Source: Verrucomicrobium sp. BvORR106 (lineage in GTDB: Bacteria > Verrucomicrobiota > Verrucomicrobiia > Verrucomicrobiales > Verrucomicrobiaceae). Taken from it: a DNA stretch of 64,000 nucleotides. The notes beneath the pieces were generated by a model, which saw nothing but the letters and a program-made list of their open reading frames with translations, searched no databases and had not been told where the DNA came from. Below are positions 12,756 to 62,435 of the stretch, in pieces; position 1 is the stretch's first letter; each line of letters begins with the position of its first letter. A program made the position numbers and the translations under genes. The stretch is from NCBI RefSeq assembly GCF_000739655.1, contig NZ_BATR01000002.1, forward strand, positions 62,001 through 126,000. Reading direction: 5' to 3'.

Positions 12756-12790
12756 GCGAAGATATTGCGGTCTAGACGACCCTCACCCGA

Positions 12791-19280: not shown

Positions 19281-19371
19281 TGCTTTGTATTTAGACCGGG
19301 TTGAGCCGCTTGAGATTGCCCGGCACCAAGTTTGGCCCAGGGCAATCGATCACTGCACCTTGTGAAAAAGA

Positions 19372-19992: not shown

Positions 19993-20115
19993 GAAGGATC
20001 GGGAAGGTTTGAAATGAGTCCGCGGAATCTCCCTCCACATGCCGGTTAAACACCGGTCAGGGAGGGCTGATTAATCGCAGAATTACTCATTTCTAGCAGG
20101 TTCCCGCTGAGGACA

Positions 20116-37083: not shown

Positions 37084-37803
37084 ATGCCCGATACCGAGTC
37101 AGAAAGCCCCTTCATTGTCTTCTTCAGCAAACAAAACGAAAAGTGCTCCCGCTGCAGCCGCCCCATCATGCAGGGCGCCTTGCTCTGCGTGTACCGGAAT
37201 CACAAACTGACTTGCACGGGTTGCGAGGGATTGGGAGATCACCTGCTGCTGCCCGCGGGTGATGTGGCCCTGACCCGCCGGGCCACCAAACACTCCAACG
37301 TCGCGCATCCAGTCTATTCACCCGAGAAGCGACGCAATCGGTATGAGCGGCGCGGCACGCTCGTGGAAGCCTATGCTCTCCAGCTCGCCGAGGCGGAATG
37401 CGAAGCCGATGCGGCGGACCGTGAGGTGAAACGCGCCAAGGATGCCGTGCGACGGGAGAAGATGGACCAGGAGTACATCGCGGTGTTCGCCATGCGCATC
37501 CGTCAGCTCTACCCCTCCTGCCCCGAGGGGTTGGAATCGGAGATCGCGATGCATGCGTGTGAGAAACACTCTGGCCGTGTGGGTCGGCGCGAAGCCGCCC
37601 GTGAGGAGCTGGACGATGAGTCCCTGAAGCTCGCGGTTCGAGCCCATATCCGCCACACCGAGACGCCGTACGACAAGCTCTTCGAGAGAGGCTACAAGAA
37701 AGAACAGGCCCGCGACGCGGTGATTGACATCGTGAACCGGGTGGAGCGCAAGTGGGCGGCGGAGTGCCTGGATAACGCCCCACCGCCCAGAATGCCAGCC
37801 TAG
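37084..37803 (+). CDS. DUF2293 domain protein with N-terminal zinc-ribbon-like cysteines
   Basis: A 239-residue cytosolic protein. The N-terminal 60 residues hold CSRC (about 21-24) and CTGC (about 44-47), a Cys4 arrangement like a zinc ribbon, with GLGDHLLLPAGDVALTRRA after it. The C-terminal half has the DUF2293 hallmark IAMHACEKHSGRVGR and EELDDESLKLAVRAHIRH. The domain is widespread but has no known function; the cysteine cluster suggests metal or nucleic-acid binding. It ends 15 bases from the convergent DUF1501 gene. Confidence 0.8.
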   Translation: MPDTESESPFIVFFSKQNEKCSRCSRPIMQGALLCVYRNHKLTCTGCEGLGDHLLLPAGDVALTRRATKHSNVAHPVYSPEKRRNRYERRGTLVEAYALQLAEAECEADAADREVKRAKDAVRREKMDQEYIAVFAMRIRQLYPSCPEGLESEIAMHACEKHSGRVGRREAAREELDDESLKLAVRAHIRHTETPYDKLFERGYKKEQARDAVIDIVNRVERKWAAECLDNAPPPRMPA

Positions 37804-39099: not shown

Positions 39100-39130
39100 G
39101 GTAATATGATTTTGATGAAGCTTTTGAATG

Positions 39131-40384: not shown

Positions 40385-41316
40385 CAGCTCGCGTCTGCGT
40401 TCCCCGGGGAAGTCATCCCCCCCAGCATGGTGGACGTGGCACCAAAAAAGGCGGCCATTTCATAGAACTGCCGCTGGGTCCAGTCAGCAAAAGGGTGGTC
40501 GTGGCACTGGGCACATGACACATCCGTGCCAAGGAACACCTGGAGAGTGTTTGCGAGATTGTCGAGTTGCATGCTGGAGTCTCGGAGGAGGTAGCCCGCC
40601 GCGCCGTTGTTCCAGACCTTTCCTTCGGCGGTGATCATGTCATTTACCATCTGGTCCCACGGCCGATTGGTGCGGACCTGTTCCTTCACCCACTCGATGT
40701 AGGCCAGACCGCGCATGTAGTATCCGAAGCCGTCCACAATACGCAGCATCTCCGCGAAGTAGTTGTACATGTGGCTGACATGCCCTTCAGACTCCAGCAA
40801 CCGGTCAATGAGCCGCATCCTCCTGTCCGCGCCTCCCGCGCCCAGAAATTGGGTAGTTTCCTCATGATTTGGAATCCGGCCGGCGATGTCCAGATAAACG
40901 CGGCGCACGAACTGCTCGTCGGTCAGCGGAGGGTTGAAGGTGGGCTTCGACGGGGCTCCGGCGTTGCGCCGCGCGACAGCTTTCTGAAGGCCTCGCAACA
41001 CCAGATCATCAATGAGGGCCGCCGCCTGGGCGGCACTGGCGTTCGTGGGCACCGAAATGAGCGCTTCTGCGTGCGGTGAGGGAGGCAGGCTGCGGGCCAT
41101 CAACTGGTCCGCCCCGGAGAGCCGCTCCAGAGACAAACCGTGAACGGAACCGTTGCCCAGTTGCAGGTAGACGACGTTCCCGTCCAGCTTCAAAAACAAC
41201 GCCTCCACTTTCCGGCCTTGAACATCTGTCCACACACGGGGTGAGTCGGCGGCGGAAGCTGGCACTGCAGACACGAGCAATCCAGCGGCAAAGAGGCATA
41301 ACAATTTTGGCATCAT
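40369..41316 (-). CDS. DUF1549 part of a frameshifted DUF1549/DUF1553 gene
   Basis: 315 residues: signal peptide (MPKLLCLFAAGLLVSAVPASA), an SHD1-like beta domain (VWTDVQGRKVEALFLKLDG), then DUF1549 (TDEQFVRRVYLDIAGRIPN, WDQMVNDMITAEG) ending in SCAQCHDHPFADWTQ, a CxxCH site as in heme proteins, and FFGATSTMLGG. Directly after the G7 run (40417-40423, C7 on the plus strand) the frame goes wrong and stops within 17 codons, while the DUF1553 half continues in the -1 frame. A palindromic operator lies 62 bases upstream of the ATG. ATG 41313 is an equal alternative; a TTG at 41340 extends the frame. Confidence 0.85.
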   Translation of the reverse strand: MMPKLLCLFAAGLLVSAVPASAADSPRVWTDVQGRKVEALFLKLDGNVVYLQLGNGSVHGLSLERLSGADQLMARSLPPSPHAEALISVPTNASAAQAAALIDDLVLRGLQKAVARRNAGAPSKPTFNPPLTDEQFVRRVYLDIAGRIPNHEETTQFLGAGGADRRMRLIDRLLESEGHVSHMYNYFAEMLRIVDGFGYYMRGLAYIEWVKEQVRTNRPWDQMVNDMITAEGKVWNNGAAGYLLRDSSMQLDNLANTLQVFLGTDVSCAQCHDHPFADWTQRQFYEMAAFFGATSTMLGGMTSPGNADASWWRGL

Positions 41317-41378
41317 GGGAGATCTCGTTTTCACAACCAAGCAACGATCCCCGCCCCCACGTCATTAGTCACCTACCC

Positions 41379-41518: not shown

Positions 41519-42145
41519 TCAATAGAGCACCACCGCCCCGGTACTGGCGTTCAGCACGAGGGTGCGATAGTTCGCGGGCAGTGCATCCGGGGCACGTTCC
41601 CAATCCGTGGCGAGGGCGAGGGTAACACACCACCTGGGATCGGACGCACCACGAGGCAGGGTCGTGCCGCCCTCGGGCTTGAAGGCAAACACGGGCGGGG
41701 TGGTATCCACATCGTCCACGGCGGAAGCCTTGACCAGCGGAGTGCGGGCCAGGAGGTTGGACCAGGATTCCTGCTCGATCATGATGGTGGACTTTTCCAG
41801 CAGATTCACCTCCCCAAAGGGCCGCCACTTTCCGGTGGCACGGTCCGGCACCATGAGCTGCCAGCCTTGGAAATAACTCTGCCCCTCGCCTCCGCCCTCC
41901 TGCTCCCGGCGGAGAAAGCGGACACCGACCATGCGATTCTCACGTGCCGCCAGTTGTGCGGCATAAGCGAGCTCGTTGGTGAACCTCGCGGAAGACGACG
42001 TGAGCTGTTGGGCAGAGAGCGCAGAACCGATGGAAAAAGATGAGAGAGCCACCAGCATCGCCACCATGGCGATGACGACCATCATCTCGATCAAGGTGAA
42101 AGCCTCGCCGCGCGAGGCCGGGAAGGAGGGATGTTTAGTTCTCAC
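41519..42145 (-). CDS. Verru_Chthon cassette protein D (GspH/FimT-like pseudopilin)
   Basis: A 208-residue prepilin-like protein. A short leader ends EA-FTLIEMMVVIAM, the type IV prepilin cleavage site with Phe+1 and Glu+5 (Ala rather than Gly at -1). The helix is followed by a region (SSARFTNELAYAAQLAARENRMVG) that corresponds to the GspH/FimT helix-strand pattern, then a beta domain. It overlaps the C gene by 11 bases. This is the last of the four cassette genes; the family name is the TIGRFAM one and no function has been shown. The GspH comparison is my inference. Confidence 0.88.
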   Translation of the reverse strand: MRTKHPSFPASRGEAFTLIEMMVVIAMVAMLVALSSFSIGSALSAQQLTSSSARFTNELAYAAQLAARENRMVGVRFLRREQEGGGEGQSYFQGWQLMVPDRATGKWRPFGEVNLLEKSTIMIEQESWSNLLARTPLVKASAVDDVDTTPPVFAFKPEGGTTLPRGASDPRWCVTLALATDWERAPDALPANYRTLVLNASTGAVVLY

Positions 42146-43253
42146 GGGATGACATCAGTTTTGCGGCCGGGATCTGCACCGCAGTGGAGAAGACGCGGAA
42201 ACCAAGCTTGAGATTGACCAGTTCGGTCTCCAGCTTCTTCACGTCATTCTCGTACTCCGAAGCAGTGGTGAAGACCTTGGTATTGGCCACGTTGCGCAAC
42301 TGGGTGGCCAGCGCATCAGTCCCCGCACTGTCGAGCTTGGACCAGTCACGCTCATCCAGGGCCACCAAAGTGAGTCGGATCATGGGAGGGAGTTGATGAC
42401 GACTGCGCTCGGCCATGGTGGTGGTGTCCGGCCACTGATGGCGGCGGGTGTCATAGATGTAGTTGGGTGCGGCCGAGGTATCCGCCCCGGTATCCTTGCC
42501 CGGCATGGGCCAGACGGGCTGAACAAAGATGGCCAGGATGTTCTCCGCCACCGGCTGGGAGTCCGCTGCAAGATCAGAGCGGAACCAGTCATACAACCCA
42601 TTCTGTGTGTTCTGCGCCTCAACCCACGGGATCTTTGTAGAGGTGGCATCGCCATTGGGCGGAATGACCAGACGGTAGAGGGAGAGCTTCTCTGTCGGCT
42701 GCCGGAATTCCATGAGGCGAAATCGCTTGCGCTCTGGATGCGCCGGGGTGTCTCCCAGGAAGGCAGGTCGCCGCGGCAGGTCACTGTCATAGGTCACATA
42801 CCAGCCCCACCCATTGAGCATGGACTCCAGCCCATAGGGCTCCGTGGAAGGTGGGTTGGGATTGCCCGCATCCAGGTTCTCCCCCAGTGGAGCCTGGAAG
42901 AAGACGGCGTGGCCAGCCGCTGGCACGGCATTGCCCAGCAGCGTCGTGACCGGTCCGTTCACATAGTGCAGCTCTGACTGGCGCTGGTAGAGCAGCGGGT
43001 TGCCGTTTGCATCCAGTTTGTAGCCCCAGTACGAGTTCAGCGTGGCCTGGGACAGCCGGGCGGCGATGGCTTCAAAGGCGGCCCGCGCCTCCCGGAACTC
43101 TTCCGTCCGGGCCTTGGCACGGCCCCAGGTGATCTGGGTGTCTGACAGCACCTGGGACAACACCATCATGAGCACGGAGAGCACCGCCACGGATACCAGA
43201 AGCTCAATCAAGGTGAATGCCGTCGTCTTGCGGGGGTGGCAGGGGCCGGACAT
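42135..43253 (-). CDS. Verru_Chthon cassette protein C (GspJ/PilW-like pseudopilin)
   Basis: A 372-residue prepilin-like protein with leader HPRKTTA-FTLIELLVSVAVL (Phe+1, Glu+5), a membrane helix and a large beta-rich periplasmic domain. RTEEFREARAAFEAIAARLSQATL after the helix matches the GspJ/PilW amphipathic helix that reads ...RA.RALERL.RDL. Third cassette gene, 9 bases after B and overlapping D by 11. Length is well above GspJ (about 200), which is normal for cassette C. Confidence 0.88.
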   Translation of the reverse strand: MSGPCHPRKTTAFTLIELLVSVAVLSVLMMVLSQVLSDTQITWGRAKARTEEFREARAAFEAIAARLSQATLNSYWGYKLDANGNPLLYQRQSELHYVNGPVTTLLGNAVPAAGHAVFFQAPLGENLDAGNPNPPSTEPYGLESMLNGWGWYVTYDSDLPRRPAFLGDTPAHPERKRFRLMEFRQPTEKLSLYRLVIPPNGDATSTKIPWVEAQNTQNGLYDWFRSDLAADSQPVAENILAIFVQPVWPMPGKDTGADTSAAPNYIYDTRRHQWPDTTTMAERSRHQLPPMIRLTLVALDERDWSKLDSAGTDALATQLRNVANTKVFTTASEYENDVKKLETELVNLKLGFRVFSTAVQIPAAKLMSSREN

Positions 43254-43262
43254 AGGGCGGGA

Positions 43263-43781
43263 TTAGTTGGAGGCCACGGCCGTCGTGCTGGCCGTCTTGT
43301 CCGTCTGGGCCAGGAGGGTCTGCGCACACTTGCAGGTGGCCGGCTGTTGAAACGCGAGGTCAGGATTGGGGCTGCTGGTGACCAGGATCTGCACCGCCTT
43401 CAGTCTTGGGTTCGAGGAAGACATCCCTGGAAGAGGCTTGGCATCTGTCACCGAGACGCGTGCCGTGAAGATGGCGCTGATGTCACCTGTCTTCACCCGC
43501 GTGCCCTGCCCATCGAAGCTGTAGTCCTGCTGACTCCCCTGCTGCTGCTGCTGGAGCACATCACTCCAGTCCCGCATGCGGTAGTCCGAGGAGATCGACT
43601 GAACGATCCTGGCAGAGGCAGTGGTGTTGGAAGCCTCACGCAGCGTGTCCAGGGACACGGGGATCAGTCCCACCAGGGCGACAAGCACGGTGGCGGCGAT
43701 GCCTACAGCGATGGTGGTCTCCACCAGGGAGAAGCCGCGACGATGTAGTTTTTTCTTGGAGGGTGGCAGGATCAGTTTCAT
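43263..43781 (-). CDS. Verru_Chthon cassette protein B (GspI/PilV-like pseudopilin)
   Basis: A 172-residue prepilin-like protein. Leader ...HRRG-FSLVETTIAVGIAATVL has Gly-1, Phe+1 and Glu+5, a canonical type IV prepilin peptidase site, and the helix ends LVGLIPVSLDTLREA, close to GspI/PilV proteins. Its ATG overlaps the stop of A by 4 bases (43778-43781), so translation is coupled. The periplasmic part is short, with a Gln-rich loop (QQQQQGSQQ). Confidence 0.9.
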   Translation of the reverse strand: MKLILPPSKKKLHRRGFSLVETTIAVGIAATVLVALVGLIPVSLDTLREASNTTASARIVQSISSDYRMRDWSDVLQQQQQGSQQDYSFDGQGTRVKTGDISAIFTARVSVTDAKPLPGMSSSNPRLKAVQILVTSSPNPDLAFQQPATCKCAQTLLAQTDKTASTTAVASN

Positions 43782-46700
43782 GGCATGAACGTTTTGCGGG
43801 TGATGACGCGGAAGCGATAGTAGTCGTCCAAAGCTCCGCTCTGGGAGGGGTTGGCGAAGTAGTTGGGAAGTTCCGGATCGTTGGGATCGATGTAGCGCTC
43901 AATGATGGAGGAGCCACGCTGTTCTGCGGTGACGGCATCCTTGCTCTCATTCCACTCGTCCGCAGCGGAGGAGCGCGCCTTCTTGAGCACCTGCACCCGA
44001 TAGTGCACGGTGAAGATGTTCGACTTGGTGGTGAGGCGGGGATAGAGCTGGTTGTAGGGGGACTCGCGCACGTTGTCGCCAGTCAGTTCAAACCCGTCTT
44101 TCTGGCTGGAAAGGCTGCCGTTCCACCAGGTGACCATGGTCTCATAGGTCGGTGAGGAGCTCGGCAGGCCATCAGCCCGGGGGTAGTAGGTGCGGCCCGA
44201 CATCGGCTTGGGTACGAGGAAAATATCGCAGATCTCCGAGGCGCTGCGGAAGATGTCCCCCTGGTCGAACCGTTGTCGGAAGCCCTTCATGGTCTCTTCA
44301 GCATTGACCTCGTAAACCGTCTCAAATTTGAGCCAGTTCTGCCAGGTCTTGTAGCTTTCCTCCATCTGAGCGGCGTTGGCCCCGCTGGTCAGGGCGTCCT
44401 TGGCCCACGCCAGCTCTGATGGCATGGCATTGATGCGAACGCTGCGTAAGGCGGCGTAAAGACTCGTGTCCCGCCTGATGTAGCTGAACGGCACGATCTG
44501 CGAGTTCAGGTTGATCTTGCCTCCGGTGGAGAAGGGTTCGCTGATGGCGTAGGGCTCCACCACCGGCATCCAGAAGAAATCCAGGAGAAGATGGTCACGA
44601 GGGGGGCGAAATCCCCAATGATCCGTCTGTATGGGCTCCAAGTTGGCGGGGCGTACTCTGGAAGGAGGGTTTGGACAAAAGAGAAGCGTTTGCCACGGAC
44701 CAGTCCGGTCACTGTTTGCAGGCACGGGGTGCACCGCGCTGGGCAGGGAGCCAAAAGCGATCGCAGAGCAGATCTGCCGGTTGGGCGAATAAGTTCTGGC
44801 AGTCGATTCATCAGTGAACCCGTCCCGGGCAAAATAACCGTCCCTGGGACCTGTGGTACCCTTGATACCGGTGTCGTCTGGCTTGTTGATGTAGGGCCCA
44901 TCTTCAATCCGCCCCATCCCGGTATCCCAGTCCCCAGGGCGATTGGAAGAGTTGTAAGCTCCGTCAAGTCTGTATGGGGTGGAAGGCTGACAGTCCTGCC
45001 AGTAAGCCACATCCCGAAGCAACCCATAAGGCTTGCTAACCTTGCTGTCGGCACCAATGACGTAGCCGGCCATCTGCCACGTATGCTGCTTGCCGACGGT
45101 GTTGTTCAGGTAGGACTGAGCATGCGTTCGGCCGTAGTGTCCTGTGTAGGCACTTCCAGCATGCCTGAGCGACTGCGCCTCCTCCTTGGTAGGGCTGCTA
45201 TAGTCGGCGTGGGGGGTGTAGCAGTCCTGAGGAATGCTCCTCATTGCGCACATGATCCTGAAATCTCCCTTTGCAATCGCATTGGTCGAACTGGTCACCA
45301 CGGAACGGACCGTGTCGCCAAGGACAATCAAAAAGTTCTGGGGGTCGTTCTTGTTGAAACGCATCTGCAGGTCCATGCACTCTTTGGCCACGGTCCAGTT
45401 GGCATTGGAAGGCATGCTGCCGTTGACCCGTACGGTGGGAACGGGCCATGGACCAGTAGGGCTGATGAAATTGAGAGTCGCCGTCTGGATCAGCGTGGAA
45501 TCATCGAGCTGTCCGGCAGCCCCCTCTCCGAGGTGAGTTTCGATGGTGACGGGTCCGCCCGTGAACTGGAAGGTACTCTGGGCTGAGACGTCAACATCCA
45601 GGCTCACAAAGGGGAATGAATTGGTTTCATCCGCGCCCACTCCGCCGGGCACCACGGTCTTGAGGGCACCACTCCGGGCCCGGTAAAACTGGGAGTGGAG
45701 GGAGGTGTAGGCCGTCGAGTGCCCGCCGTCTTTCGCTGCCCCGGCCGGCACCCAGCAGCGGTTGACCCCCGCTGCGGCAAAGCCCAGCGGCTGGCTGTTC
45801 ACCTTCCAGTTCTCCATGCCCTTGATCCGGTACCGCACATTGGGGGTGTAGGGAGGCATGCCTACCACGGGCGTGAACGGCTGGACCACAAGAAAGGCGC
45901 GCATCCGCTTTGTCTTGTCCGCCTTGCTGTCGGCTGGCGCGGTGTCCTTGGGACTGCCATCGGGATTGGTTTCGACCTCGGTCGCCATGAAGATCAAAGA
46001 CGCCTCGATAACGGTAGGGTAACGCCCGAGGGCCTTGAGCTTGGTGGGAAAGGACTCGGCGGCAGTCCCGTCCGCCACTATTGGCACGGCTGAGGCCTCC
46101 GCCAGATACTCCCCATTCAGACCTGTGTAGGCCCGGGGCGGGATGTAGTGATATTTGGGAGTGTCATAGGGATTGTTTGCATTCACCCCCCAGCGAACAA
46201 AGTCGAACATGTTGAGCAGGATCTGGTTCCGGTTCGAGGAACCATATTTGTCGTCGAACGTCTGGGTTCCAAAGCCGGGCACTGCCGCCTTGGTGAGTTT
46301 TTGCAGGTAGCTGAAAATCATCTGATTCCCCGACAGTTGAAAGTCCGCGGTGGGGCTCTGCGATGACCCCTGCTTGGTCGAGGCGTTTTCCCAAGTTGAT
46401 GCCCTCTGGAACGCGCCCAACTGCCCAGCAGAGGTCGCACAAAAGGCAAGCAGTTTGTCTTTGGCTGTGCGCTTGGACGCCTCCGCCTGGACCGGCCACA
46501 ATGAAATTCGCGGGCGGTTGTAAAGGTTCACCTCAGGTGCCCGGCTGTGCGCCGTGAGAAAGAACCGGCCCATCTCGAGATCTGCGGCATTTACCGTTCC
46601 GTCGGAGGAGTTGGCCAGACGCTGATTCTTTCCCGCATCAAAACCTGATCCATAAAAGAACTCGTCCACGGAAGTAAAGAGTCGTTCCCGCTTCAATGGG

Positions 46701-47806
46701 ACACCGGTGGCGAGGGATGCCACTTCCGACCCGCCCATCGAACTTTCGCCAGAAGCGCCGAGTTGCACCCGGGGCAAGAGATCATAGATGCCTCGCAGCC
46801 AGGTCTGGTACGCAGATTTGTTGCCAACCGTCCCATCGCTCTGAATGGCGGGAAACTGGTAGTTGTATTTGGCGTCGAAGGCCTGAAGCACCGTGCTCAT
46901 GCTCGTCATCGCCGGATGCCCGGGAAAGCGCTGAAACTCGTTTTGCGCCGGTATGAAATAGGCGAAATTGCGATCCGACCATCCGGCCGCGCGTGGCACA
47001 TCCCAGCCGGTTCCCTCCCCCGCCGTGTTGACGTTCACCTTGCAGCTCTCGTCATCGGTCCAAAAGGCAATCCGACCCACGATAGGGTTTTTTTCCGTAA
47101 CCTCAGCGCTTTTGAAGGTGGCCCGGCCACCTTCACCGCCATCCGGTGCAACAATCCTTCCGTCCTGCAGCACATAGAGCCAGCGCACGGGCATGGGTAG
47201 AGGCTGGTCTGAAGTGGAACTGGGCACGGCGACGGTGGAGGAGAGCCCAAATCCAGCAACCTTACCCGTGGTGGTGCCGCCTGAAGTCTGCAACACACTG
47301 GCATCCAGCACAGGGTAGACCCGGTGGACGTTGCCGTCCGCATCCAGACGCGCCACGGGTTCATTGAGATCCGTGAACTGGGCCGGCAGCTCTTTCCACT
47401 TTGCCAAAGATGTCGCCTCATTCAGCGCGTTGAAACTGTCGCCTCCCTCCGTCATCTTGTCTGAGGAGTAGAGCCTCCAGGCAGTCTCCAGCTTGGCGCG
47501 GCCCGCCACGGCTCCTGGAGCGGTGCCAAATACACGGATCATGCCCGGCTGGGAGGCCCAGGTCTTGCTCATCCCCAAGCCGGAAGTGGCCTCGCGGATC
47601 TGACCCATGACAATGCTCACCGGCATGTCGGTGAGGCCGCGCACTTGCGAGGTCTGGCTGAATGCGGAAGAGGAGCGGGCTTCTGACGAACCCATGGAGA
47701 GCAGCGCCAGCACCAGACCCATGAGAAGAGCCACAATGGCGAGCACCATCACCAGAGCCATCCCGGCCTGCTGACTCCCCTTGTTCATGTTACGTCTTTT
47801 GTTCAT
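43778..47806 (-). CDS. Verru_Chthon cassette protein A (GspK/PilX-like, giant)
   Basis: A 1342-residue protein. The leader QQAG-MALVMVLAIVALLMG is a prepilin-like site with Gly-1 but Met at +5, lacking the Glu found in major pilins; GspK, the tip pseudopilin of type II secretion, lacks it too. A huge periplasmic domain of about 1280 residues follows, beta-rich, with VNVNTAGEGTGWDV and other loops, no recognised enzyme. First of the four cassette genes, 28 bases after the PEP-CTERM repeat protein and overlapping B by 4. Start choice: ATG 47806 (47788 also possible); the frame is open to 47869. Confidence 0.88.
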   Translation of the reverse strand: MNKRRNMNKGSQQAGMALVMVLAIVALLMGLVLALLSMGSSEARSSSAFSQTSQVRGLTDMPVSIVMGQIREATSGLGMSKTWASQPGMIRVFGTAPGAVAGRAKLETAWRLYSSDKMTEGGDSFNALNEATSLAKWKELPAQFTDLNEPVARLDADGNVHRVYPVLDASVLQTSGGTTTGKVAGFGLSSTVAVPSSTSDQPLPMPVRWLYVLQDGRIVAPDGGEGGRATFKSAEVTEKNPIVGRIAFWTDDESCKVNVNTAGEGTGWDVPRAAGWSDRNFAYFIPAQNEFQRFPGHPAMTSMSTVLQAFDAKYNYQFPAIQSDGTVGNKSAYQTWLRGIYDLLPRVQLGASGESSMGGSEVASLATGVPLKRERLFTSVDEFFYGSGFDAGKNQRLANSSDGTVNAADLEMGRFFLTAHSRAPEVNLYNRPRISLWPVQAEASKRTAKDKLLAFCATSAGQLGAFQRASTWENASTKQGSSQSPTADFQLSGNQMIFSYLQKLTKAAVPGFGTQTFDDKYGSSNRNQILLNMFDFVRWGVNANNPYDTPKYHYIPPRAYTGLNGEYLAEASAVPIVADGTAAESFPTKLKALGRYPTVIEASLIFMATEVETNPDGSPKDTAPADSKADKTKRMRAFLVVQPFTPVVGMPPYTPNVRYRIKGMENWKVNSQPLGFAAAGVNRCWVPAGAAKDGGHSTAYTSLHSQFYRARSGALKTVVPGGVGADETNSFPFVSLDVDVSAQSTFQFTGGPVTIETHLGEGAAGQLDDSTLIQTATLNFISPTGPWPVPTVRVNGSMPSNANWTVAKECMDLQMRFNKNDPQNFLIVLGDTVRSVVTSSTNAIAKGDFRIMCAMRSIPQDCYTPHADYSSPTKEEAQSLRHAGSAYTGHYGRTHAQSYLNNTVGKQHTWQMAGYVIGADSKVSKPYGLLRDVAYWQDCQPSTPYRLDGAYNSSNRPGDWDTGMGRIEDGPYINKPDDTGIKGTTGPRDGYFARDGFTDESTARTYSPNRQICSAIAFGSLPSAVHPVPANSDRTGPWQTLLFCPNPPSRVRPANLEPIQTDHWGFRPPRDHLLLDFFWMPVVEPYAISEPFSTGGKINLNSQIVPFSYIRRDTSLYAALRSVRINAMPSELAWAKDALTSGANAAQMEESYKTWQNWLKFETVYEVNAEETMKGFRQRFDQGDIFRSASEICDIFLVPKPMSGRTYYPRADGLPSSSPTYETMVTWWNGSLSSQKDGFELTGDNVRESPYNQLYPRLTTKSNIFTVHYRVQVLKKARSSAADEWNESKDAVTAEQRGSSIIERYIDPNDPELPNYFANPSQSGALDDYYRFRVITRKTFMP

Positions 47807-47834
47807 GAGTTTGACCTGTTTCGGTGAATTTTGA

Positions 47835-50800
47835 TCAACGGCGGCGACGGAGGGAGAGGCATGCCACACCCAGGAAAAGCAGCATCAAACGGCCCGGCTC
47901 AGGCACCACCACCACCTGGATGTAGAGGCCGTTGAGATCGGTGGAGAGCTGCCACTTCAAGTCCTCACCGAGATCCGGCATGTCCAGTAGGCCGAGGGAG
48001 CCGGTGAACTTGGCATTGTTCGGGTTCCCACCTACAACCACGTTGCTCCAGTCGATGAGCTGCCACTTGTCCAGCTCCATCCAGAACTCGGAAGTTTCGT
48101 TGATATCCGTCACTTTCAGCGTGCCTCCCAGGACGATGGCGTTGTCACTCTTCAGGACCAGCACGTCATTGGTAGCCAGCGGGGATGCCAGGTTGGAGTC
48201 TCCGCCAAAGTTCTCCACAATGTCGAACTCCAGCGTTCCCTGAAGAGTGATGATCCCCGTGCCGCTGTTCTGAAGGGTGAAGGATTGCCCAGCGCTGTCC
48301 CCGAACTCACCCAGCTTGCCCACCTGCAGGTTGGCACCGCTGTTGATGGAGATGTTGCGGTCCGCAGCGGTCACGACGGAACCGGCGCCTCCGAATCGGG
48401 CCCCTGACTGGACTGTGACATGCCCGGTGCCGGTACCACTGCCAGCGGTGTTCTGCACTAGGTAAGTACCAGCCGTGACGGTCGTACCACCGGTGTAGGT
48501 GTTGGCGGCAGATGCCGTCACCGTTCCTGAGCTGCTCTTGGTGACGGCAGCGCTTCCATCCATGATGGCCGTGACCGTGCCGTTGCGTAAATCATAGGCG
48601 CTCGCGGTCAGCACCCCGGTGGAGCCTTCGATGCGGCCATTCGTCAACGTCACTGCCGCCACGGTTTCATTGTTCGCCCCCAGACTGAAGATCGCGCTGC
48701 CTCCGTTCACTGTCACGGCCCCGGTATCGGCGAGCACTCCGGCCGCCCCCAGCGCCAGCGTACCGTCCAGAATGGTGGTGCCGCCCGTATAGGTATTCCC
48801 TCCTGAAAGCGTCAGCACACCCGCACCGCTCTTGGTCAGCCCGCCACTGGTGTTGCTGCTGAGAGCCACCGTGCCCGCGCTGGCGGCCGTGGCAGCCCCG
48901 CCCCCGTGCAGTGTGACCGTGAGCACATCCCCATCCACATAGCCGGTACCGGGATTGGTGATGGTGAAGCCAGTGACCACTCCGTTCACCACCGTGGCCA
49001 CCGCCGTGGCTCCCGTACCGGAACCTCCGCTGATGACCACCACCGGAGTGTCCACATAACCAGCACCGCCACCGGAGACGGCAATGCTGCTGACACCGCT
49101 GCCGTTGGGTGCGAGCAGCGCCTGGCCAATCGTGATGTCAAAACCTGCGGTGTCGATTTTCGCCCCACCCGAATAGACAAAGGCGTTCGTGAGCCCGGTC
49201 ATGAAGGTGGTGTTGGTCGCGTTGGCCTTCAGGGTGCCGCCATTGAAGTTGAAGAGGCCGGTGCCGGCGCCTCTGGTCACCCGGTTGGTAGTGAGAGTGC
49301 CGCCGAGGAGGTTGACCGTGCCGTTGGATGCCGCCCCGACCTGGCCGAGCGCAAGGCCGTTGGTCGCCAGATTGACGGCGGCAGATCCGGATATGTTCAA
49401 GATGCCAACGCCGTTCTCACCCACGAACATCCCGCCCGTGCCGCTCAGCGCGGAGAAGGTGGCGGAGCCGCTGATGTTGTATACCCCGATGGAGCCCGTG
49501 CCCCCTGCTCCGACCGTCATGCGGTTTGAATTCACAAAGATATCACCACCGGTCTGGTTGATGACGGCGCGGTCGTTGTTGAACCCCACCACAAACCAGC
49601 TGCCCGAGGTGACCGTTCCACCGCTCATGGACATGGCGGCAAAGGCTCCGGCACCACGCCCCAGGTGGAACTCACTCGTGGTGGTGATGCTGCCCGAGGA
49701 CATCTTCACGAAGCCGCGGCTGTTGGCCAGCGAGCCCACCGCGAGGCTTGGGCTGGTGTTCTTCGTGGCGTTCAGCGTGCCGCCATCAATGGTCAGAATC
49801 GCATTCAGGTTCGCGGTATCACCAATAGTAACCTGGCCGATGTTGGCTGTATTGAGGGCATTGACCGCCCCCAGCAGGCGGAGCGTGCCGTCGCTGACAT
49901 TGAGGGTCCCGGTGAAGGTGCTCTGCCCAGTGAGGCTGAGGGTGCCCGTCCCGTTCTTCACCAGGCCGAAGCCCGCGCCGCTGATCGCCCCGCCCACGGT
50001 CAGGGTGCCGGAGCCGTTGGTGGTGACCGTACGGGTGGCGGACAGGGTGACCCCGCCCGTGCCCAGATTCAGGTCATTGGTGCCGCCATAGACGAAGTTG
50101 GCGTTCCACACCATGCCGTTGTTCGTGCCCACCGTCACCGCGCCACCGCTGGTGTTGTTGATCGTGCCGCCGTTAATCGTGAAAGTGCCGGTACCCAGAG
50201 CAGAGTTGCCTGCGCCCGTGCCCCCCTGGTTGATGTTCAAGGTGGTGCCGGAAGACAGGTTGAGACCACCGGAGAAGGTGCTGTTTCCAGAAAGGGTGAA
50301 GGTGCCCGTGCCGGCCAGGGTGAGGGTGCGGGCCCCGCTGATGATCGAGGAAATCACCGCCGCATTGGCCGAGTTGCTGGTCCAGGTCTGGTTGGCCCCC
50401 AGCGCGACACCCTGGGCGGAGAGGGTGAGAGCGCCCGCCCCCGAGTTGATCGTGATCCCCGCAGGGTCAACAATCGTGAGCACGTTCGCCCCGCCAATGC
50501 CCACAGCGCTCGCGGAGTTGATGGTGAGCGATTTGATGAAGATGTCTGCCCCGAGCGTGGTGCTGCTTTCATTCGCCGCTCCAGTCGCGGAGAAGATCAC
50601 TGCAGAGGTGCCGTCAAGCGCCTGGCCCGGATCCGCGGTCCCGGCCGCGTCGCTGGTGAAGTTGGAGTTGCCACCGCTAAGGGCACTCCAGACGCCGCTC
50701 ACATCCCCCTTCCAGTAGGCCACCGCCGGAGAGGTGCTGGTGAAGACATTCAGCGTCAGCGCATTCCCGCCTGTAACACTGAGGGAGAGGTTAAAGCCCG

Positions 50801-53800
50801 CCAGGGAGGCGGCTGCGAGTTCGAAGTTGGACGCACTGATGCCCGTGGCCCCGGTGATGAGCTGGTAGGAGCCCGCCCCATAGCCAGCGATGTTCACCAG
50901 GTTGATGGTGGCCACGCCGCTGGTGAAGGTGTAGGTCCCGCCGGTAAGCGCGATCTGGTCGCCTGTGGTGCCGAGGTCAAAGGAAAGCACGTTCCCACCG
51001 TTGAGCGTCAGCCCTGCGGAAAGGGTGAGCGTTCCCGACTGGCCGTCCTGGAGATTGATGGCCGATCCGGCACCCGACAGGGAAACCAGGCCCCCAATCG
51101 TTCCATTCCCCCCCAGCGCCCCGGTGGTGGTTACGGTGACGGCCGTATTGCCGAGACGGCCGGTGATGCGCAGCATCCCCCCGTTGACCTGGGTGGCTCC
51201 GGTGTACGTGTTGTTTCCTGAGAAGGTCTGGGTGCCCGTGCCTGCCTTAATGATGCCAAGAGAGGTCGCCAACCCGTTACTGATCACCCCGCCAAAGTTC
51301 TCAGCACCCGTGCCGGAGAGCGTCATTACCGGGTTGCCCCCAGCGGCGTTGGAGGTAATGGTAATCGCCGAGGCGTCGTCGTAGGTCTTCAGCAGGCCGG
51401 TGGTCTGGCTGTTGCCGTTGAGGTCCAGAGTCGTGCCAGCCCCCATGGTCACCGTCCCGGTTCCCAGCACCCCTGAGTTCGCGTTGTTTACCAGCAGTGT
51501 GCCGCCGGTGATGGCCAGGCCGCCGCTGTAGGTATTGGCTGCGCCACTGAGGGTGAGCGTGCCTGCACCGGTCTTGGTGAAGAGCCCTGCACCGGTGATG
51601 CTTCCGGAGAGTGTGGAGGCATTGCCATTCGTGTCAAAGGTGCCCGCCCCGGTGAGGGTGATGGCCTTGGCGGTGGTGATACCGCCCACGGCGGCCTGCA
51701 GCGTGCCGCCGTTGAAGACGATGCCGTTGGTGGTGTTGCTCCCGTTGATCCCCGCCGTGGCGGCGCGCAGGATGCCGCCGTTGAGATTGATGACGCCCGT
51801 GAAGGTGTTGGTGTTGCTGAGATGCATCGTGCCCGCCCCGGCCTTGGTGATGCCGGTCCCGCTCAGCACGCCGGAGATCAGCAGGTCGACGCCGGAGGCG
51901 GTCGCCCCCTGGGCGGTGGTGAAAGTCATGGGTCCGGCGTCACGCGAAACCACGTTCCCGCTCACCGTAGAAGTGACGGTGCTGGCCAGGGTGGTGATGC
52001 CGAAGCCCGTGGTGAAGTTGTAGGAGCCACCACCTGTGGAGGACATCGTGGCCCCGGTGAGGTTGAAGTTCGTCCGGTATCCTTGGTTGCCGGAGACCGT
52101 ATTGTTCACCGTTCCGCCCACCACGTTGACCGTGGCAACCCGGGTCGAATCATTATTGAAACCCAGTGAATCCGTGGCTGAGAGGTTGAGTTGGGCACCG
52201 GAGTTCACCGTGACGGTTCCTCGAACCGCACCCGCTCCGCCGCCGGCCGACAGCACCAACGTGCCAGAGTTCACCACCGTGTTGCCGGTGTAGGTGTTGA
52301 TCTGGTTGAAGGTGGCCACACCGCTAAAGACGTCGCCGCCGACCACGCCAAAAGTCACGCTGCCCGCACCGCTGATGACCCCGGTCTGGGCGAGGTTTCC
52401 ATTACCCGTGAAGGTCACCCCGAACCCTCCATTGGTCACCGCCCCGAGAGTCAGCAACGTGGTGCCGCCAGTGGTGGGGTTCACGACATGGAAGATGGGG
52501 GCCGCCGTGAAGGTGGTGGCTCCAAAGGTAATGCCTGCCGTGCCGCTGCTGACATTTGCACCACCCGCCACCACGAGGCGCTGCGCCCCAATGGAAAGGG
52601 TGCCGAGCGTGTGGGTCACTCCGGCTCCGGCATTCAGGCGGTCCGAGGTGATCCTGGCATCGCCGGTCACCGTGGTGTTGCGCCCGAAGTTCAAGGCGGT
52701 GTCATTGGCGAGTTGCAGCTCCCCGCCAGCCAACGTCAGAGCCCCTGCGCCCAGTGCAGAAGCGTTGGTGGTCGCGCGCAGCACCCCGGCATTCACCGTG
52801 GTCGCTCCGGAGTAGGTGTTGACTCCTGAAAGCGTCACCGTACCCAGCCCGCTCTTCGTCAGCGAGCTGGCCCCGTTGGCCAGAATGTTTGTGGTGATGG
52901 CGAGACTGTCATTGAGCTGGTCCGCGCGAATCACCAGCTCTGCACCGCTGGCGGCCTGGATGCCCGTGCCGCCGGAGAGGGTGGCTCCACCGGCGACGTT
53001 GCCCGATTTCAGGATGCCATTGACCGTCAGGGTGGCGCCGGTGTTGAGGGCGAAGTTGGAGTTCCCGCTGAGATTCAAGGTGGTGAACGTGGCTGTATCC
53101 TGGGCGGTTACGGCCGCAGTCGTCTGCACGTGCGTTCCGGTCAGAGTGGTGCCACCGGCAAACGTGAAGGCACCGCCATCCGTGCCGTACTGGAGATCGC
53201 GTACATAGCCGGTGGCGTCGTAAAAGGCGTAGGTGTTTCCGCCGAAGAAAGTGCCCTGGTCGATGAACGCCCCGGCGGTGACGCCACTGGTAAGGACGAT
53301 CTTGTTGGTCGTGCCATTGGAGCCCCCGGAGACGACGAAGTTGGCCGTGGCTCCCGCAGTGCGGGCGAAGGAGGCAAACGTGAGCGTGGTGTTGCCGCTG
53401 CCACCATAGGTGGAAGTGACCGTCCCCTCACCGACTGAGAAGATCAACGCACCCATGCCCTGACTGCTGCCGGCCGCTTCATTGAACTCGATGCCGCCGG
53501 TTCCTGCAAAAGTCAGCGCTGTGCCCGTGGTGCCGTTCAGGGAACCGGTGGTGCCATTCCCCACCTTCAAAAGGCCACCGCGGACGGTCGTGAGGCCCGT
53601 GTAGGTATTAGCACCGGTGATCAGCATAGTGCCAGCCCCTGCCTTGGTCAGAGCACCGGTGGTGAGGTTGGCCGCATTGGACAGTTTCACGGAGACGGTC
53701 AGGTCCACGTTTGAGTTTCCTGTGGCATCGGCCACGTCAAACACGACTGTGCCTCCACCCTGTCTGCCCAGCATGATGCCGTTGGCGACGGTGTTGGTGG

Positions 53801-55172
53801 CGTCCGAGTTGATCACGGAGGCGACAGTTCCTCCCACGGTCACATTGCCCATGAGGATGACGGACTCATAGTTGACACTGAATCCGTTGCCCGTGGTCAG
53901 AGTGCCGCCGTTCAACACGATGTTGCCGAAGATGTTCGCATCGCCATTGCCAGCACCACCGCCGGAGGGCACCGCCGTTTTCAGCACGCCGCCCTGATTC
54001 ACGATGAAGGTGAGAAGTGGCATCGTGGTGGACCCGCCGCTGCCCAGGGCGTTGCCAACCGAGATTGCAACCGTGCCGCCGTTGTTGATGGTGACGGTCT
54101 TTCCTGCCGTGCCGGGATTACCAAACGAGCCGGAGGTACGGTTGTTCGTATTGGAGGAGTTGGAGGCGATCAACGTTCCGCCGTTAACGACGATGTTTCC
54201 GGTGAAGGTGTTCGCGCCGGAAAGCGTGAGGCTGCCCGTGCCCGTCTTGGTGAGGGTGCCGGCTCCGCTGAGCACGCCGCTGTAGGTGGTGGAAGCGTTG
54301 TTGGCCCCGACGATCAGATTCACGTTCGAGGCATTCACATCCGTCAGCGCGAATGCCGCATTGCCTGCCAGGCCGCCCACATTGAAGTTCAACACGCCGC
54401 CACTGAACGCCACACCGTTAGCCACGTTGTTGGTCAGGGTGCTGTTCTGCACCGCATTGGCATTGGCAAGCCGGAGCACGCCAGCCGTGATGGTGGTGGC
54501 ACCTGTGTAGGTATTGGTCCCGGAAAGCACCCAAGTGCCTGCGCCGGTCTTGGTCACCGCCACGGAGGTCGCGCCGCCATTGGAAATAACTCCGCTCAGA
54601 GTGCCGCCACCCGCCCCGGTCAATGTGAGGGTCTTCACCCCGGCCGTGCCGCCAGTACCGCCGCTGATGGCACCTGCAAAATTGAGCAGGTTCGTCGTGC
54701 TGTTGTTGGTGAAGGTGTAGCTCTGGGTGGTGGCATCTGCACCCAGCAGGAGGGCGGCATTGATGAGCTGGTTGTTGATGAGGGCGGCATTCATCGTGAT
54801 GCTGCCGCCGTTGCCCAGCGTGAGGATTTGACTGCCCGCCGCGCCCGACCCCAGCACATAGGCGGAAGCCTGATTGGTGTCGAAGAGCACCGACTGGATC
54901 GTCACGCCCGCACCGAGATTGATGACGGTGTTGCCACTGCCTGCACCATTGAAGGTGGCAGTATCTCCTGCTCCGGGAACGGCATTGATATCCCAGTTCG
55001 CCGCACCTGCCCAGGTGTTGTCCTGGCTGCCGTCCCACACACCCGTCGCCGCCTGAGCGGGCTCTGCGGCACCCAACGCCGCCGCGAGGAGAATCGCCAA
55101 CGCTGTGCGCAGAGGACGCCGCGTGGTATCATTTCGCCAATCGCGATTCCCGACCGTTGTCAGGCTCGTCAT
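47835..55172 (-). CDS. Giant autotransporter-type repeat protein with PEP-CTERM tail
   Basis: A 2445-residue secreted protein. After a signal peptide (LRTALAILLAAALGAAEPAQA) the mature chain begins GVWDGSQDNTWAGAANWD and runs through at least twelve autotransporter-associated beta-strand repeats of the form LSGxNTYTGxTTVxxGxL, separated by Gly/Thr/Asn-rich strands predicted to make a beta helix. There is no autotransporter barrel; the last 25 residues (PEPGRLMLLFLGVACLSLRRRR) are a PEP-CTERM tripartite sorting signal, cut and anchored by an exosortase. No exosortase gene is in the window. First gene of the operon with cassette A-D. Frame opens at 55262; ATG 55172 begins the signal peptide. 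Long plus-strand open frames in this region are antisense to it and not genes. Confidence 0.92.
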   Translation of the reverse strand: MTSLTTVGNRDWRNDTTRRPLRTALAILLAAALGAAEPAQAATGVWDGSQDNTWAGAANWDINAVPGAGDTATFNGAGSGNTVINLGAGVTIQSVLFDTNQASAYVLGSGAAGSQILTLGNGGSITMNAALINNQLINAALLLGADATTQSYTFTNNSTTNLLNFAGAISGGTGGTAGVKTLTLTGAGGGTLSGVISNGGATSVAVTKTGAGTWVLSGTNTYTGATTITAGVLRLANANAVQNSTLTNNVANGVAFSGGVLNFNVGGLAGNAAFALTDVNASNVNLIVGANNASTTYSGVLSGAGTLTKTGTGSLTLSGANTFTGNIVVNGGTLIASNSSNTNNRTSGSFGNPGTAGKTVTINNGGTVAISVGNALGSGGSTTMPLLTFIVNQGGVLKTAVPSGGGAGNGDANIFGNIVLNGGTLTTGNGFSVNYESVILMGNVTVGGTVASVINSDATNTVANGIMLGRQGGGTVVFDVADATGNSNVDLTVSVKLSNAANLTTGALTKAGAGTMLITGANTYTGLTTVRGGLLKVGNGTTGSLNGTTGTALTFAGTGGIEFNEAAGSSQGMGALIFSVGEGTVTSTYGGSGNTTLTFASFARTAGATANFVVSGGSNGTTNKIVLTSGVTAGAFIDQGTFFGGNTYAFYDATGYVRDLQYGTDGGAFTFAGGTTLTGTHVQTTAAVTAQDTATFTTLNLSGNSNFALNTGATLTVNGILKSGNVAGGATLSGGTGIQAASGAELVIRADQLNDSLAITTNILANGASSLTKSGLGTVTLSGVNTYSGATTVNAGVLRATTNASALGAGALTLAGGELQLANDTALNFGRNTTVTGDARITSDRLNAGAGVTHTLGTLSIGAQRLVVAGGANVSSGTAGITFGATTFTAAPIFHVVNPTTGGTTLLTLGAVTNGGFGVTFTGNGNLAQTGVISGAGSVTFGVVGGDVFSGVATFNQINTYTGNTVVNSGTLVLSAGGGAGAVRGTVTVNSGAQLNLSATDSLGFNNDSTRVATVNVVGGTVNNTVSGNQGYRTNFNLTGATMSSTGGGSYNFTTGFGITTLASTVTSTVSGNVVSRDAGPMTFTTAQGATASGVDLLISGVLSGTGITKAGAGTMHLSNTNTFTGVINLNGGILRAATAGINGSNTTNGIVFNGGTLQAAVGGITTAKAITLTGAGTFDTNGNASTLSGSITGAGLFTKTGAGTLTLSGAANTYSGGLAITGGTLLVNNANSGVLGTGTVTMGAGTTLDLNGNSQTTGLLKTYDDASAITITSNAAGGNPVMTLSGTGAENFGGVISNGLATSLGIIKAGTGTQTFSGNNTYTGATQVNGGMLRITGRLGNTAVTVTTTGALGGNGTIGGLVSLSGAGSAINLQDGQSGTLTLSAGLTLNGGNVLSFDLGTTGDQIALTGGTYTFTSGVATINLVNIAGYGAGSYQLITGATGISASNFELAAASLAGFNLSLSVTGGNALTLNVFTSTSPAVAYWKGDVSGVWSALSGGNSNFTSDAAGTADPGQALDGTSAVIFSATGAANESSTTLGADIFIKSLTINSASAVGIGGANVLTIVDPAGITINSGAGALTLSAQGVALGANQTWTSNSANAAVISSIISGARTLTLAGTGTFTLSGNSTFSGGLNLSSGTTLNINQGGTGAGNSALGTGTFTINGGTINNTSGGAVTVGTNNGMVWNANFVYGGTNDLNLGTGGVTLSATRTVTTNGSGTLTVGGAISGAGFGLVKNGTGTLSLTGQSTFTGTLNVSDGTLRLLGAVNALNTANIGQVTIGDTANLNAILTIDGGTLNATKNTSPSLAVGSLANSRGFVKMSSGSITTTSEFHLGRGAGAFAAMSMSGGTVTSGSWFVVGFNNDRAVINQTGGDIFVNSNRMTVGAGGTGSIGVYNISGSATFSALSGTGGMFVGENGVGILNISGSAAVNLATNGLALGQVGAASNGTVNLLGGTLTTNRVTRGAGTGLFNFNGGTLKANATNTTFMTGLTNAFVYSGGAKIDTAGFDITIGQALLAPNGSGVSSIAVSGGGAGYVDTPVVVISGGSGTGATAVATVVNGVVTGFTITNPGTGYVDGDVLTVTLHGGGAATAASAGTVALSSNTSGGLTKSGAGVLTLSGGNTYTGGTTILDGTLALGAAGVLADTGAVTVNGGSAIFSLGANNETVAAVTLTNGRIEGSTGVLTASAYDLRNGTVTAIMDGSAAVTKSSSGTVTASAANTYTGGTTVTAGTYLVQNTAGSGTGTGHVTVQSGARFGGAGSVVTAADRNISINSGANLQVGKLGEFGDSAGQSFTLQNSGTGIITLQGTLEFDIVENFGGDSNLASPLATNDVLVLKSDNAIVLGGTLKVTDINETSEFWMELDKWQLIDWSNVVVGGNPNNAKFTGSLGLLDMPDLGEDLKWQLSTDLNGLYIQVVVVPEPGRLMLLFLGVACLSLRRRR

Positions 55173-55537
55173 GGCATCATCATTACATTGGCAACTGCGG
55201 AAGAGCATTGAAGGGCAGGTTGGAGTCGTTCCTTGAGGATTCAGTGAAGTGACCTGGATCATAGGGAACCCAGGCCCGGTCCGTCTCTAGAACATATGTT
55301 CTACCGGGCTCGGGAGCGGCAGGCGCCACACCGCAGAGAGTTGGCGAACGCCCTGTAAAGATGTGAATGCTTGCATGACACGATCATCGCGGCCCCGTGT
55401 CGAAATGGCTTGGACCCGTCAGTCCACTTTTGGTATGGATCCGCCTTCCCCGCCCCGCTCATCCATCCGCCACCATTCATTACTCATTTCCTAGAACCCA
55501 CACACCCGCCTATCCCAACCCCATCTCCCTCCAAGCT
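55173..55537. other. Intergenic region before the giant-protein operon
   Basis: 365 bases holding operator copy 2 (55288-55303) and, on the minus strand, TATGAT at 55263-55258, a good -10 candidate 115-90 bases before the ATG. No gene is seen. The rest (55304-55537), between operator and the AraC stop, shows nothing further. Confidence 0.5.
55288..55303. promoter_or_regulatory. Palindromic operator, copy 2 (before the giant-protein operon)
   Basis: TAGAAC-ATAT-GTTCTA, a perfect 16-bp palindrome 115 bases before the start of the giant repeat protein. A minus-strand TATGAT (-10 candidate) lies 24 bases downstream of it at 55263-55258, so the site is in an upstream activator-like position. Confidence 0.78.
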
Positions 55538-56359
55538 CTAGGACGCCTGGCGTCGCCGCTTGCGGAAGGCCAGTGGCGTCTCCCCCGTATGGATGCGGAA
55601 CTGCCGTGTGAAGGCGCTCTGGTCATAGAACCCATTGTCCTGGGCGATCTCCGCCACGGACTTGTCAGAACCCAGCAGTTCGTCACTGGCCGCCTGAATG
55701 CGGGTGCGGATGATGAACTCCTGGACGCTCATGCGGAAGATCTCCTGGAACCTCCGGTTCAACTGCCGCTCAGAGATGCTTGCGAGGCGGGCCATGTCCT
55801 CCACCGGGATGCGCTCCTGGTAGTGGGAGTGCACATGCGCCACCACCCGCTGCACCTGCAGGTCATATGCTGCGCTACCCGGAGCGCCAAAGTAGGGGCG
55901 CACGATCCCCATCACCCCCACTGCCGCCCCGGATGTATCGTAGATCGGTAGCTTCGTGGTCAGGAACCAGTCCTTGGCCCGGGTGCGAGCGTAGAGGGCC
56001 TCCACCTTGTTGATGATGGGCTGCCCGGTGCTCATCACCCGGAGATCATCCTCACGAATGGCGCGCGCCACGGTGACGGGATGGATGCTCTCATCACTGG
56101 CCCCCAGGAGCTCCTCCTCATCCCTGACCCCGATCCGTTCCAGCGTGCCCCGGCTTACGGCAATGAAACGGCTCTCGCGGTCTTTGGCAAAGAAATCCGT
56201 GTCCGGCAGGTATTCGAACAGGGTGCCCAGCTGCCGGGCCACCCCGGGCTGAGCCAGGAATCGCATCTGAAAATCGCGGGGCGAGACCCTGGCTGCCCTG
56301 CCGGAGGCAGAGTGGGATTCATGGCTGCGGAAGGGTGGAAAAGGCAGGCTGATGCTCAT
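55538..56359 (-). CDS. PAS-AraC family transcriptional regulator, first paralogue
   Basis: A 273-residue regulator. A PAS-like sensor domain (about 40-150) has FEYLPDTDFFAKDRESRFIA and RTRAKDWFLTTKLPIYD; a C-terminal AraC/XylS double helix-turn-helix (about 170-270) has MARLASISERQLNRRFQEIF, SVQEFIIRTRIQAASD and GFYDQSAFTRQFRIHTGETP. The domain order is reversed from AraC itself in that the sensor is a PAS rather than a cupin. Divergent from the sensor kinase over 177 bases with operator copy 3. It is the gene nearest upstream of the giant-protein operon. ATG 56359 is chosen; the frame opens at 56557. Confidence 0.9.
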   Translation of the reverse strand: MSISLPFPPFRSHESHSASGRAARVSPRDFQMRFLAQPGVARQLGTLFEYLPDTDFFAKDRESRFIAVSRGTLERIGVRDEEELLGASDESIHPVTVARAIREDDLRVMSTGQPIINKVEALYARTRAKDWFLTTKLPIYDTSGAAVGVMGIVRPYFGAPGSAAYDLQVQRVVAHVHSHYQERIPVEDMARLASISERQLNRRFQEIFRMSVQEFIIRTRIQAASDELLGSDKSVAEIAQDNGFYDQSAFTRQFRIHTGETPLAFRKRRRQAS

Positions 56360-56464
56360 GAGACTGCTGGGTGAGGGACGGCGAGTGGATGCGTTCGGGC
56401 CCTTCCTCCAGCCCGCGCCCGACAGGTTCTGCCACCAGCGTAAGCCGCCCCCCTGCCGGGCTCT

Positions 56465-56482
56465 ACAGAACGAATGTTCTGT
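56465..56482. promoter_or_regulatory. Palindromic operator, copy 3 (kinase/AraC divergent promoter)
   Basis: ACAGAAC-GAAT-GTTCTGT, perfect 7-bp arms. It lies 54 bases before the kinase ATG (56537) and 105 before the AraC ATG (56359). TATGAT at 56498-56503 follows the half-site TGTTCT (56475-56480) by 17 bases, so the operator overlaps the likely -35 region of the kinase promoter, as expected for a class II activator. Confidence 0.78.
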
Positions 56483-56536
56483 TTTTTCGAAGTCTGGTAT
56501 GATGCAGAATCGACGTTCCTTATTTGCCCTCCCGCC

Positions 56537-62259: not shown

Positions 62260-62435
62260 GACAATGAGCGGACGGCATCCGGCACGACAACGGCATCCGT
62301 TGCCCCACCGGGAGCCACCCCTTCCGCAATTAAATGGTATGCCGGAACAAATTGCCAGCAAATCCCAGTTGGGACGCCATTTTCCCCAACTCCTTCCGGC
62401 TCATTGTGAGTACCCGCCCCAGCCCCAGCAAGCGC

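Follow-up and report, generated by a model that had tools for sequence, protein, structure and literature searches.

The window analysed here, a stretch of 64,000 nucleotides from Verrucomicrobium sp. BvORR106 (contig NZ_BATR01000002.1, positions 62,001 to 126,000), carries on its minus strand a gene for a very long secreted repeat protein followed by the four genes of a Verru_Chthon cassette, A, B, C and D. We propose, with a probability of about one half, that the four cassette proteins form an additional, swappable pseudopilus tip on a machine of the type II secretion system (T2SS) kind, and that the adjacent PATR/PEP-CTERM protein is most likely its cargo at this locus. The proposal is based upon the likeness of the cassette proteins to minor pseudopilins and upon a recurrent adjacency of cassettes to PATR/PEP-CTERM genes in this genome and its relatives.

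Results

Cassette proteins resemble the minor pseudopilins of type II secretion

All four window proteins carry a prepilin leader and score far above the cut-offs of the NCBIfam cassette models (1588 bits for A with TIGR02600, 173 for B with TIGR02598, 450 for C with TIGR02599 and 256 for D with TIGR02596), families that are named without a function. The structure model of window C (predicted local distance difference test, pLDDT, 88) aligns with TTHA1219 of Thermus at Z 11.0, EpsJ at 10.7, and GspJ and XcpW both at 10.6, the best unrelated chain reaching 4.6. For A the model is that of a family member from Methylacidiphilum (L109; 1181 residues and thus short enough to be modelled in full, 38% identity to window A, pLDDT 82.8), which aligns with Escherichia coli GspK (3ci0_K) at Z 11.4 over 256 of 280 residues (root-mean-square deviation 3.7), followed by a next listed chain at Z 3.9. 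The GspK and GspJ fold matches both come from a second look with VIA-align. Because the GspK match runs over model residues 46 to 1181, A has kept the GspK core and holds several hundred additional residues; the window protein is about 1340 residues long, versus 280 in the solved GspK chain. The least conserved part of the A family is the stretch of about 481-840, and the weak matches (Z <4) of the added region, at about 505-760 of the model, are mostly to beta-sandwich folds.

Profiles of other families were searched over sets of 52 B, 48 C and 49 D members. GspH is the match of 46 of the 49 D members; of the 48 C members, 36 match ComGE and 18 match GspJ, and matches of B are divided among PilV (14 of 52), ComGE (10), XpsI (5) and GspI (4). 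Moreover, in a scripted leader-site search that gave no bonus for glutamate, Glu+5 was found in 96 of 99 B, 94 of 100 C and 96 of 98 D but in none of the 124 A copies, nine of which yielded no site at all. The GspH-I-J-K tip of the T2SS (PDB 3ci0, 5vtm) likewise lacks this residue in its K-like member alone. By fold or profile, the assignment of A, C and D as GspK-, GspJ- and GspH-like is strong, while the profile matches of B suggest more weakly that it may be PilV/GspI-like. An expectation of the earlier note on this DNA, that the four would fold like pilins, is borne out by structure models for window C and a relative of A; the profile matches of D, and more weakly those of B, would agree with it. 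Its description of the leaders, with A devoid of Glu+5, was also accurate.

B, C and D share with the type IV pilus set FimU-PilV-PilW-PilX and with ComGD-E-F a resemblance to PilV, ComGE, ComGF or ComGD models. In contrast to type IV pilus minor pilins, cassette A is GspK-like over its conserved core, and no pil gene was seen beside the window cassette. Many Verrucomicrobiota genomes, including some of the window's own order, also hold frames, mostly of 700-1400 residues, that start like the first 60 positions of A; these may belong to a broader group of large proteins resembling GspK.

Cassettes are numerous and variable in gene order

The host genome (8.69 Mb, 209 contigs) holds about 22 copies of A. 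Among 103 cassettes read, which are not independent of one another and whose genes were called by a codon-usage script rather than an annotation pipeline, the order A-B-C-D occurs 27 times, B-C-A-D 17, B-C-D-A 13 and D-B-C-A 13; the others are incomplete or, as judged by the profiles, comprise only A. The earlier note had equated the four proteins with the T2SS minor pseudopilins in order as well as in kind. As to order this does not hold, as the window cassette reads K-I-J-H, which differs from gsp order. The D-B-C-A variant, however, corresponds to gspH-I-J-K, the order also found in the host's own gsp operon (L163), and is better evidence of kinship with gspH-K than the window order that had been cited.

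At L071:5091-9823 one of the host's A copies is divided between two frames, and the PATR gene next to it is likewise distributed over several; this is perhaps a decaying cassette. In a phylum sample, 63 of 115 genomes gave some match to TIGR02600, mostly leader-only, and three exceeded its cut-off. A literature search by the Verru_Chthon cassette names and accessions found no paper naming them in the collection searched.

PATR/PEP-CTERM genes adjoin cassettes in a lineage-bound manner

In the window, the ATG of A lies at 47806, 28 bases past the TGA of the repeat-protein gene; A and B overlap by 4 bases, B and C are separated by 9, and C and D overlap by 11. The arrangement described in the earlier note, a secreted repeat protein 28 bases upstream of four coupled prepilin-type genes, is thus confirmed for all five frames. 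The giant open reading frame spans 47835-55262 on the minus strand, and a start at 55172 yields a product with a signal peptide evident by eye, 12 TIGR02601/PATR repeat stretches and a PEP_CTERM match at the C-terminus (E 0.001, 19.7 bits, cut-off 16). With this signal peptide, a PEP-TM-Arg C-terminus and two exosortases above cut-off in the genome, the protein looks like an exosortase substrate.

PATR repeats were called with a profile made from 30 repeats of the host genome, and PEP-CTERM ends with our own pattern rather than curated models. By these calls, 15 of the 22 host cassettes have a same-strand neighbour bearing PATR repeats or a PEP-CTERM end (two A copies, at L068, share one partner), and such proteins account for 14 of 26 adjacent same-strand genes versus 1 of 108 genes at least four places away (Fisher 4e-11). 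The near relative BvORR034 gave 7 of 9 adjacent and 0 of 44 distant genes. The other genomes of the scan gave 10 of 78 versus 11 of 278 (p 0.011; L093 and L095 overlap, and one region is counted in both). A further 17 regions from G066 and G078, taken from the phylum sample, and from G116, which was no random draw, gave 8 of 19 versus 3 of 66 (p 2e-4); one of these eight hits, L179, has a questionable PEP-CTERM end, and the fused frame described below is not counted among them. On a quickly searched tree of 102 A proteins, for which a long branch uniting L079/L080 is flagged, the partner label requires 16 changes versus 26.7 in shuffles, none of 500 being as low; the pairing is thus clustered but was gained or lost repeatedly. 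Exosortases were above cut-off in 31 of 36 cassette genomes versus 46 of 112 others, a comparison between two differently drawn genome sets that is uncorrected for kinship, genome size and completeness.

The partner may stand on either side of A or of D, adjacency persisting although gene order differs, and its length ranges from 282 to 2673 residues. The tie of cassettes to PEP-CTERM/PATR genes is real but lineage-bound. What the earlier note said of it survives in part: adjacency is far above background in the host and related genera, but the notion that the partner must be giant or PATR-bearing was rejected, given partners as short as 282-298 residues and partners that have no PATR repeats. 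Three partners of C-A-D or B-C-A-D cassettes (L063:679-5958, L102:13772-19012 and L171:14540-16759) share the C-terminus W-x-Y-x-PTPVWG-x-PAKEA and end in GKLR in place of PEP-CTERM, which is possibly another sorting signal.

The unit is conserved in Prosthecobacter and partly fused in another genome

A Prosthecobacter locus (L082, of genome G116) keeps the order regulator, PATR protein, A-B-C-D, and the genes beyond differ. Identity to the window is 71% for A, 62% for B, 69% for C and 61% for D, and 53% over 245 residues for the repeat protein. The regulator there is 66% identical to the window frame at 55538-56557 and 72% to a paralogous frame at 60179-61102.

In genome G066, a PEP-CTERM protein and cassette A occupy one frame of 2074 residues (L169:4958-11182), in which A is 59% identical to, and closest to, window A. 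The frame runs from a signal peptide through a repeat region, VPEPGRVLLLLTGGLCLVLRRRR and ten residues to the leader of A. Its repeat region holds one significant PATR repeat and is 35% identical to residues 1910-2475 of the window protein. This topology would suit a single chain cut by exosortase and by prepilin peptidase. An ATG just after a G-rich stretch permits separate translation of A, and the fusion, present in one genome, may be only a lost stop.

Two type II secretion operons lie elsewhere in the genome

The host encodes two T2SS operons, with roles set by order, leader and length and with ATPases, secretins and K confirmed separately. On contig C73 the genes share one orientation, in the order E, F, G, H, I, J, K, probable L and M, and D, interrupted by a small extra frame behind E and by another, of 218 residues, ahead of D; on contig C200 the order is K, L, M, D, F, G, H, I, J one way with E opposite. 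Since each operon has its own H-I-J-K, the cassettes, which are scattered and lie outside these operons, would be extra tip sets. They differ from the standard T2SS tip in this respect, in their many copies per genome, and in standing beside cargo-like or sugar genes. We had considered whether the C200 operon lacks GspK and borrows one from the cassettes, and rejected this, as GspK is present at C200:80467.

Sugar genes accompany some cassettes in distant Verrucomicrobia

Outside the closest relatives, 69 same-strand neighbours (excluding BvORR034 loci, L082, cut open reading frames, those with unknown bases and those below 120 residues) include GH130 four times, GH5 three times, and GH38, GH2, FGGY kinases and LamG twice each. 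Among 69 distant control genes, the first of a shuffled list of 195, each of these families, as well as PATR and PEP-CTERM, has at most one member (25 of 62 families are listed for neighbours and 25 of 88 for the control, the unlisted ones being single-member). LacI regulators number two beside cassettes and three in the control, MFS transporters three and two, and sulfatases appear twice in the control. In the host itself, GH16-like and sulfatase-like genes, named by eye, adjoin the cassettes L065 and L080. Some cassettes of the more distant Verrucomicrobia thus belong to sugar operons. The partners of cassettes therefore differ between lineages, which fits a swappable tip and also a glycan-binding pilus tip.

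Features of the window locus

The minus strand of the window encodes, in order, an AraC/PAS regulator, the repeat protein, A, B, C and D (Table 1). A scan for promoters and terminators found nothing exceeding shuffled sequences. Three related regulator-type frames (55538-56557, 60179-61102 and 61450-62361), all on the minus strand, lie near the unit, and the Prosthecobacter regulator matches all three, best 60179-61102. Between D and the next conserved gene, at 37819-41340, are a DUF1549-type gene and two other frames. None of the three finds a match in region L081 of BvORR034, which is otherwise syntenic; there D is followed by a gene that matches window 37084-37803. The DUF1549 frame (40369-41340) overlaps the next one (39131-40384) and may be broken.

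Table 1. Genes of the cassette unit in the window
Feature	Coordinates	Strand	Remarks
AraC-type regulator with PAS domain, possible local regulator of the unit	55538..56557	-	Open reading frame limits, start uncertain; Pfam HTH_18, PAS_4
Secreted PATR repeat protein, 2445 residues, signal peptide, C-terminal PEP-CTERM (VPEPGRLMLLFLGVACLSLRRRR)	47835..55172	-	
Verru_Chthon cassette protein A (TIGR02600), giant GspK-like minor pseudopilin, 1342 residues, prepilin leader G|MALVM, without Glu+5	43778..47806	-	
Cassette protein B (TIGR02598), PilV/GspI-like minor pseudopilin (weak evidence)	43263..43781	-	
Cassette protein C (TIGR02599), GspJ/PilW-like minor pseudopilin	42135..43253	-	Window C modelled; matches GspJ/EpsJ/XcpW
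Cassette protein D (TIGR02596), GspH/FimT-like minor pseudopilin	41519..42145	-	

Discussion

From gene content, homology, predicted fold and repeated adjacency we infer complex formation, use of a gsp machine and export of a cargo. A-B-C-D would be an additional variant set of GspK-GspI-GspJ-GspH in which A combines the GspK fold with hundreds of further residues. Once prepilin peptidase has cleaved them, the four proteins would assemble into a K-I-J(-H) tip. The pseudopilus carrying it would be driven by a general machine of T2SS type whose genes lie elsewhere, most likely in one of the two gsp operons. With some 22 A genes in the genome, the sets would be exchangeable with one another as tips, and each would be expressed at a locus that also holds genes for its own cargo or substrate. 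At the window locus, the tip would help the PATR/PEP-CTERM protein across the outer membrane or present it there. Export of the neighbour is plausible and the leading reading.

Several observations weigh against this proposal. Foldseek alone gave no significant match for the A or the C model, and the fold evidence for A comes from a relative rather than from the window protein. Sequence searches of the A, B, C and D profiles against the PDB returned pilin helices or nothing, with no convincing minor pseudopilin. The canonical GspK model NF037980 scores 21.7 bits on window A, over the first 75 or so residues, against a cut-off of 130, although the two operon copies of GspK also remain below that cut-off (76.6 and 53 bits). 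The sequence and model data gathered gave no sign of substrate binding or complex formation. As for the partner, seven of the 22 host cassettes have none on the same strand, two of which (L073, L074) are cut by a contig end and five of which are uncut. At least 40 distinct PATR frames were seen by eye in the host among the 150 of 514 candidate segments scored, and about 29 of 40 do not adjoin a cassette. Outside the host and BvORR034, a PATR/PEP-CTERM neighbour accompanies 8 of 70 cassettes, or 8 of the 52 with both neighbours in view; our home-made calls may miss partners there, although curated Pfam models likewise gave no more than four PATR and three PEP-CTERM among the 69 neighbours. The general co-occurrence that the earlier note expected is thus unsupported at the scale of the phylum, close to the outcome that it had itself named as refuting, that cassettes occur as often without an adjacent giant repeat protein.

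A somewhat unlikely, yet serious, alternative is that the cassette forms the tip of a surface pilus by which polysaccharide is bound or drawn in, with the enlarged A as a glycan-binding head, the neighbours as glycan-use enzymes and a PEP-CTERM scaffold, and no export by the tip. The excess of GH130, GH5, GH38, GH2 and FGGY genes beside distant cassettes, the genes adjoining L065 and L080, and the weak beta-sandwich matches of the added region all point in this direction. In addition, glycan accumulation in Akkermansia depends on mul/pilus genes, according to passages of two reports (PMC13174399, PMC12418764), and parts of a study of Verruconatronum describe a pseudopilin over-expressed on alginate, a pulG-like pseudopilin with 67 homologues, and the proposed export of alginate lyase by a T2SS (PMC13274419). 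Akkermansia PilQ and PEP-CTERM proteins are treated in a section of PMC4960237. In the collection searched, the single paper that mentions exosortase together with pseudopilin appears to concern archaeal proteases. Set against a glycan-binding pilus are LacI and MFS genes hardly commoner beside cassettes than in the control, and an A protein that has no Pfam match and hence no known carbohydrate-binding domain. GspK and GspJ folds, moreover, are known from secretion tips rather than adhesins, and the PEP-CTERM partners that are kept would be left unexplained by such a pilus alone. It is less probable still that the tip formed by the cassette serves a different secreted cargo, with the adjacent gene being only co-regulated or co-inherited and its product reaching the surface by its own exosortase route. 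The diversity of neighbours, the lack of an adjoining cassette for most PATR frames seen and the lack of PATR beside most cassettes elsewhere would agree with this, but the adjacency recurs with different partners, orders and positions, with 16 changes on the A tree, and in G066 it extends to one continuous frame.

The earlier note had also suggested that a pil-type machine at 12791-19992 of the window might drive the tip, a suggestion that we now consider very improbable. This machine is part of a MUL2-type locus (Amuc_1098-1102) at 10673-20040, comprising rho, coaE, a TPR-secretin, a gene of unknown kind, an Amuc_1100-like gene (E 5e-5), PilM and an Amuc_1102-like gene (E 3e-17). Such a layout, with its coaE and rho neighbours, is described in parts of PMC13174399 as often conserved in Verrucomicrobiales and is proposed there to build a type IV-like pilus. 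Cassette and locus share the window, about 21 kb apart, and BvORR034, syntenic around the cassette, has a 97% identical MUL2 secretin. The genes of the two differ, however, and the cassette is probably no part of MUL2; no ATPase was found on the window's contig and no PilC among nine proteins scanned at the locus, and the secretin and nearest cassette lie on different contigs in draft assemblies of two related genera (Prosthecobacter G116, and G066). Furthermore, MUL2 is reported, in a passage of the same paper, as undetected in Methylacidiphilales, where cassettes are present (L094, L098, L109). The host genome also holds two further long relatives of the MUL2 secretin (80% and 47% identity).

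To our knowledge it is an open question how a T2SS recognizes its cargo, and another how PEP-CTERM proteins get across the outer membrane. If A-D are indeed an exchangeable tip, then four annotated families that lack a function would acquire one. As a tentative extension of this proposal, Verrucomicrobia may keep some twenty interchangeable tips, each with its own cargo, so that one machine would be retargeted by swapping its tip and the outer-membrane step of PEP-CTERM proteins would be supplied; one genus may even make cargo and tip as one chain that is split by exosortase and prepilin peptidase. A genome that combines some 22 tip sets with a pair of machines would make both cargo recognition by the T2SS and the crossing of PEP-CTERM proteins testable by simple deletions and swaps.

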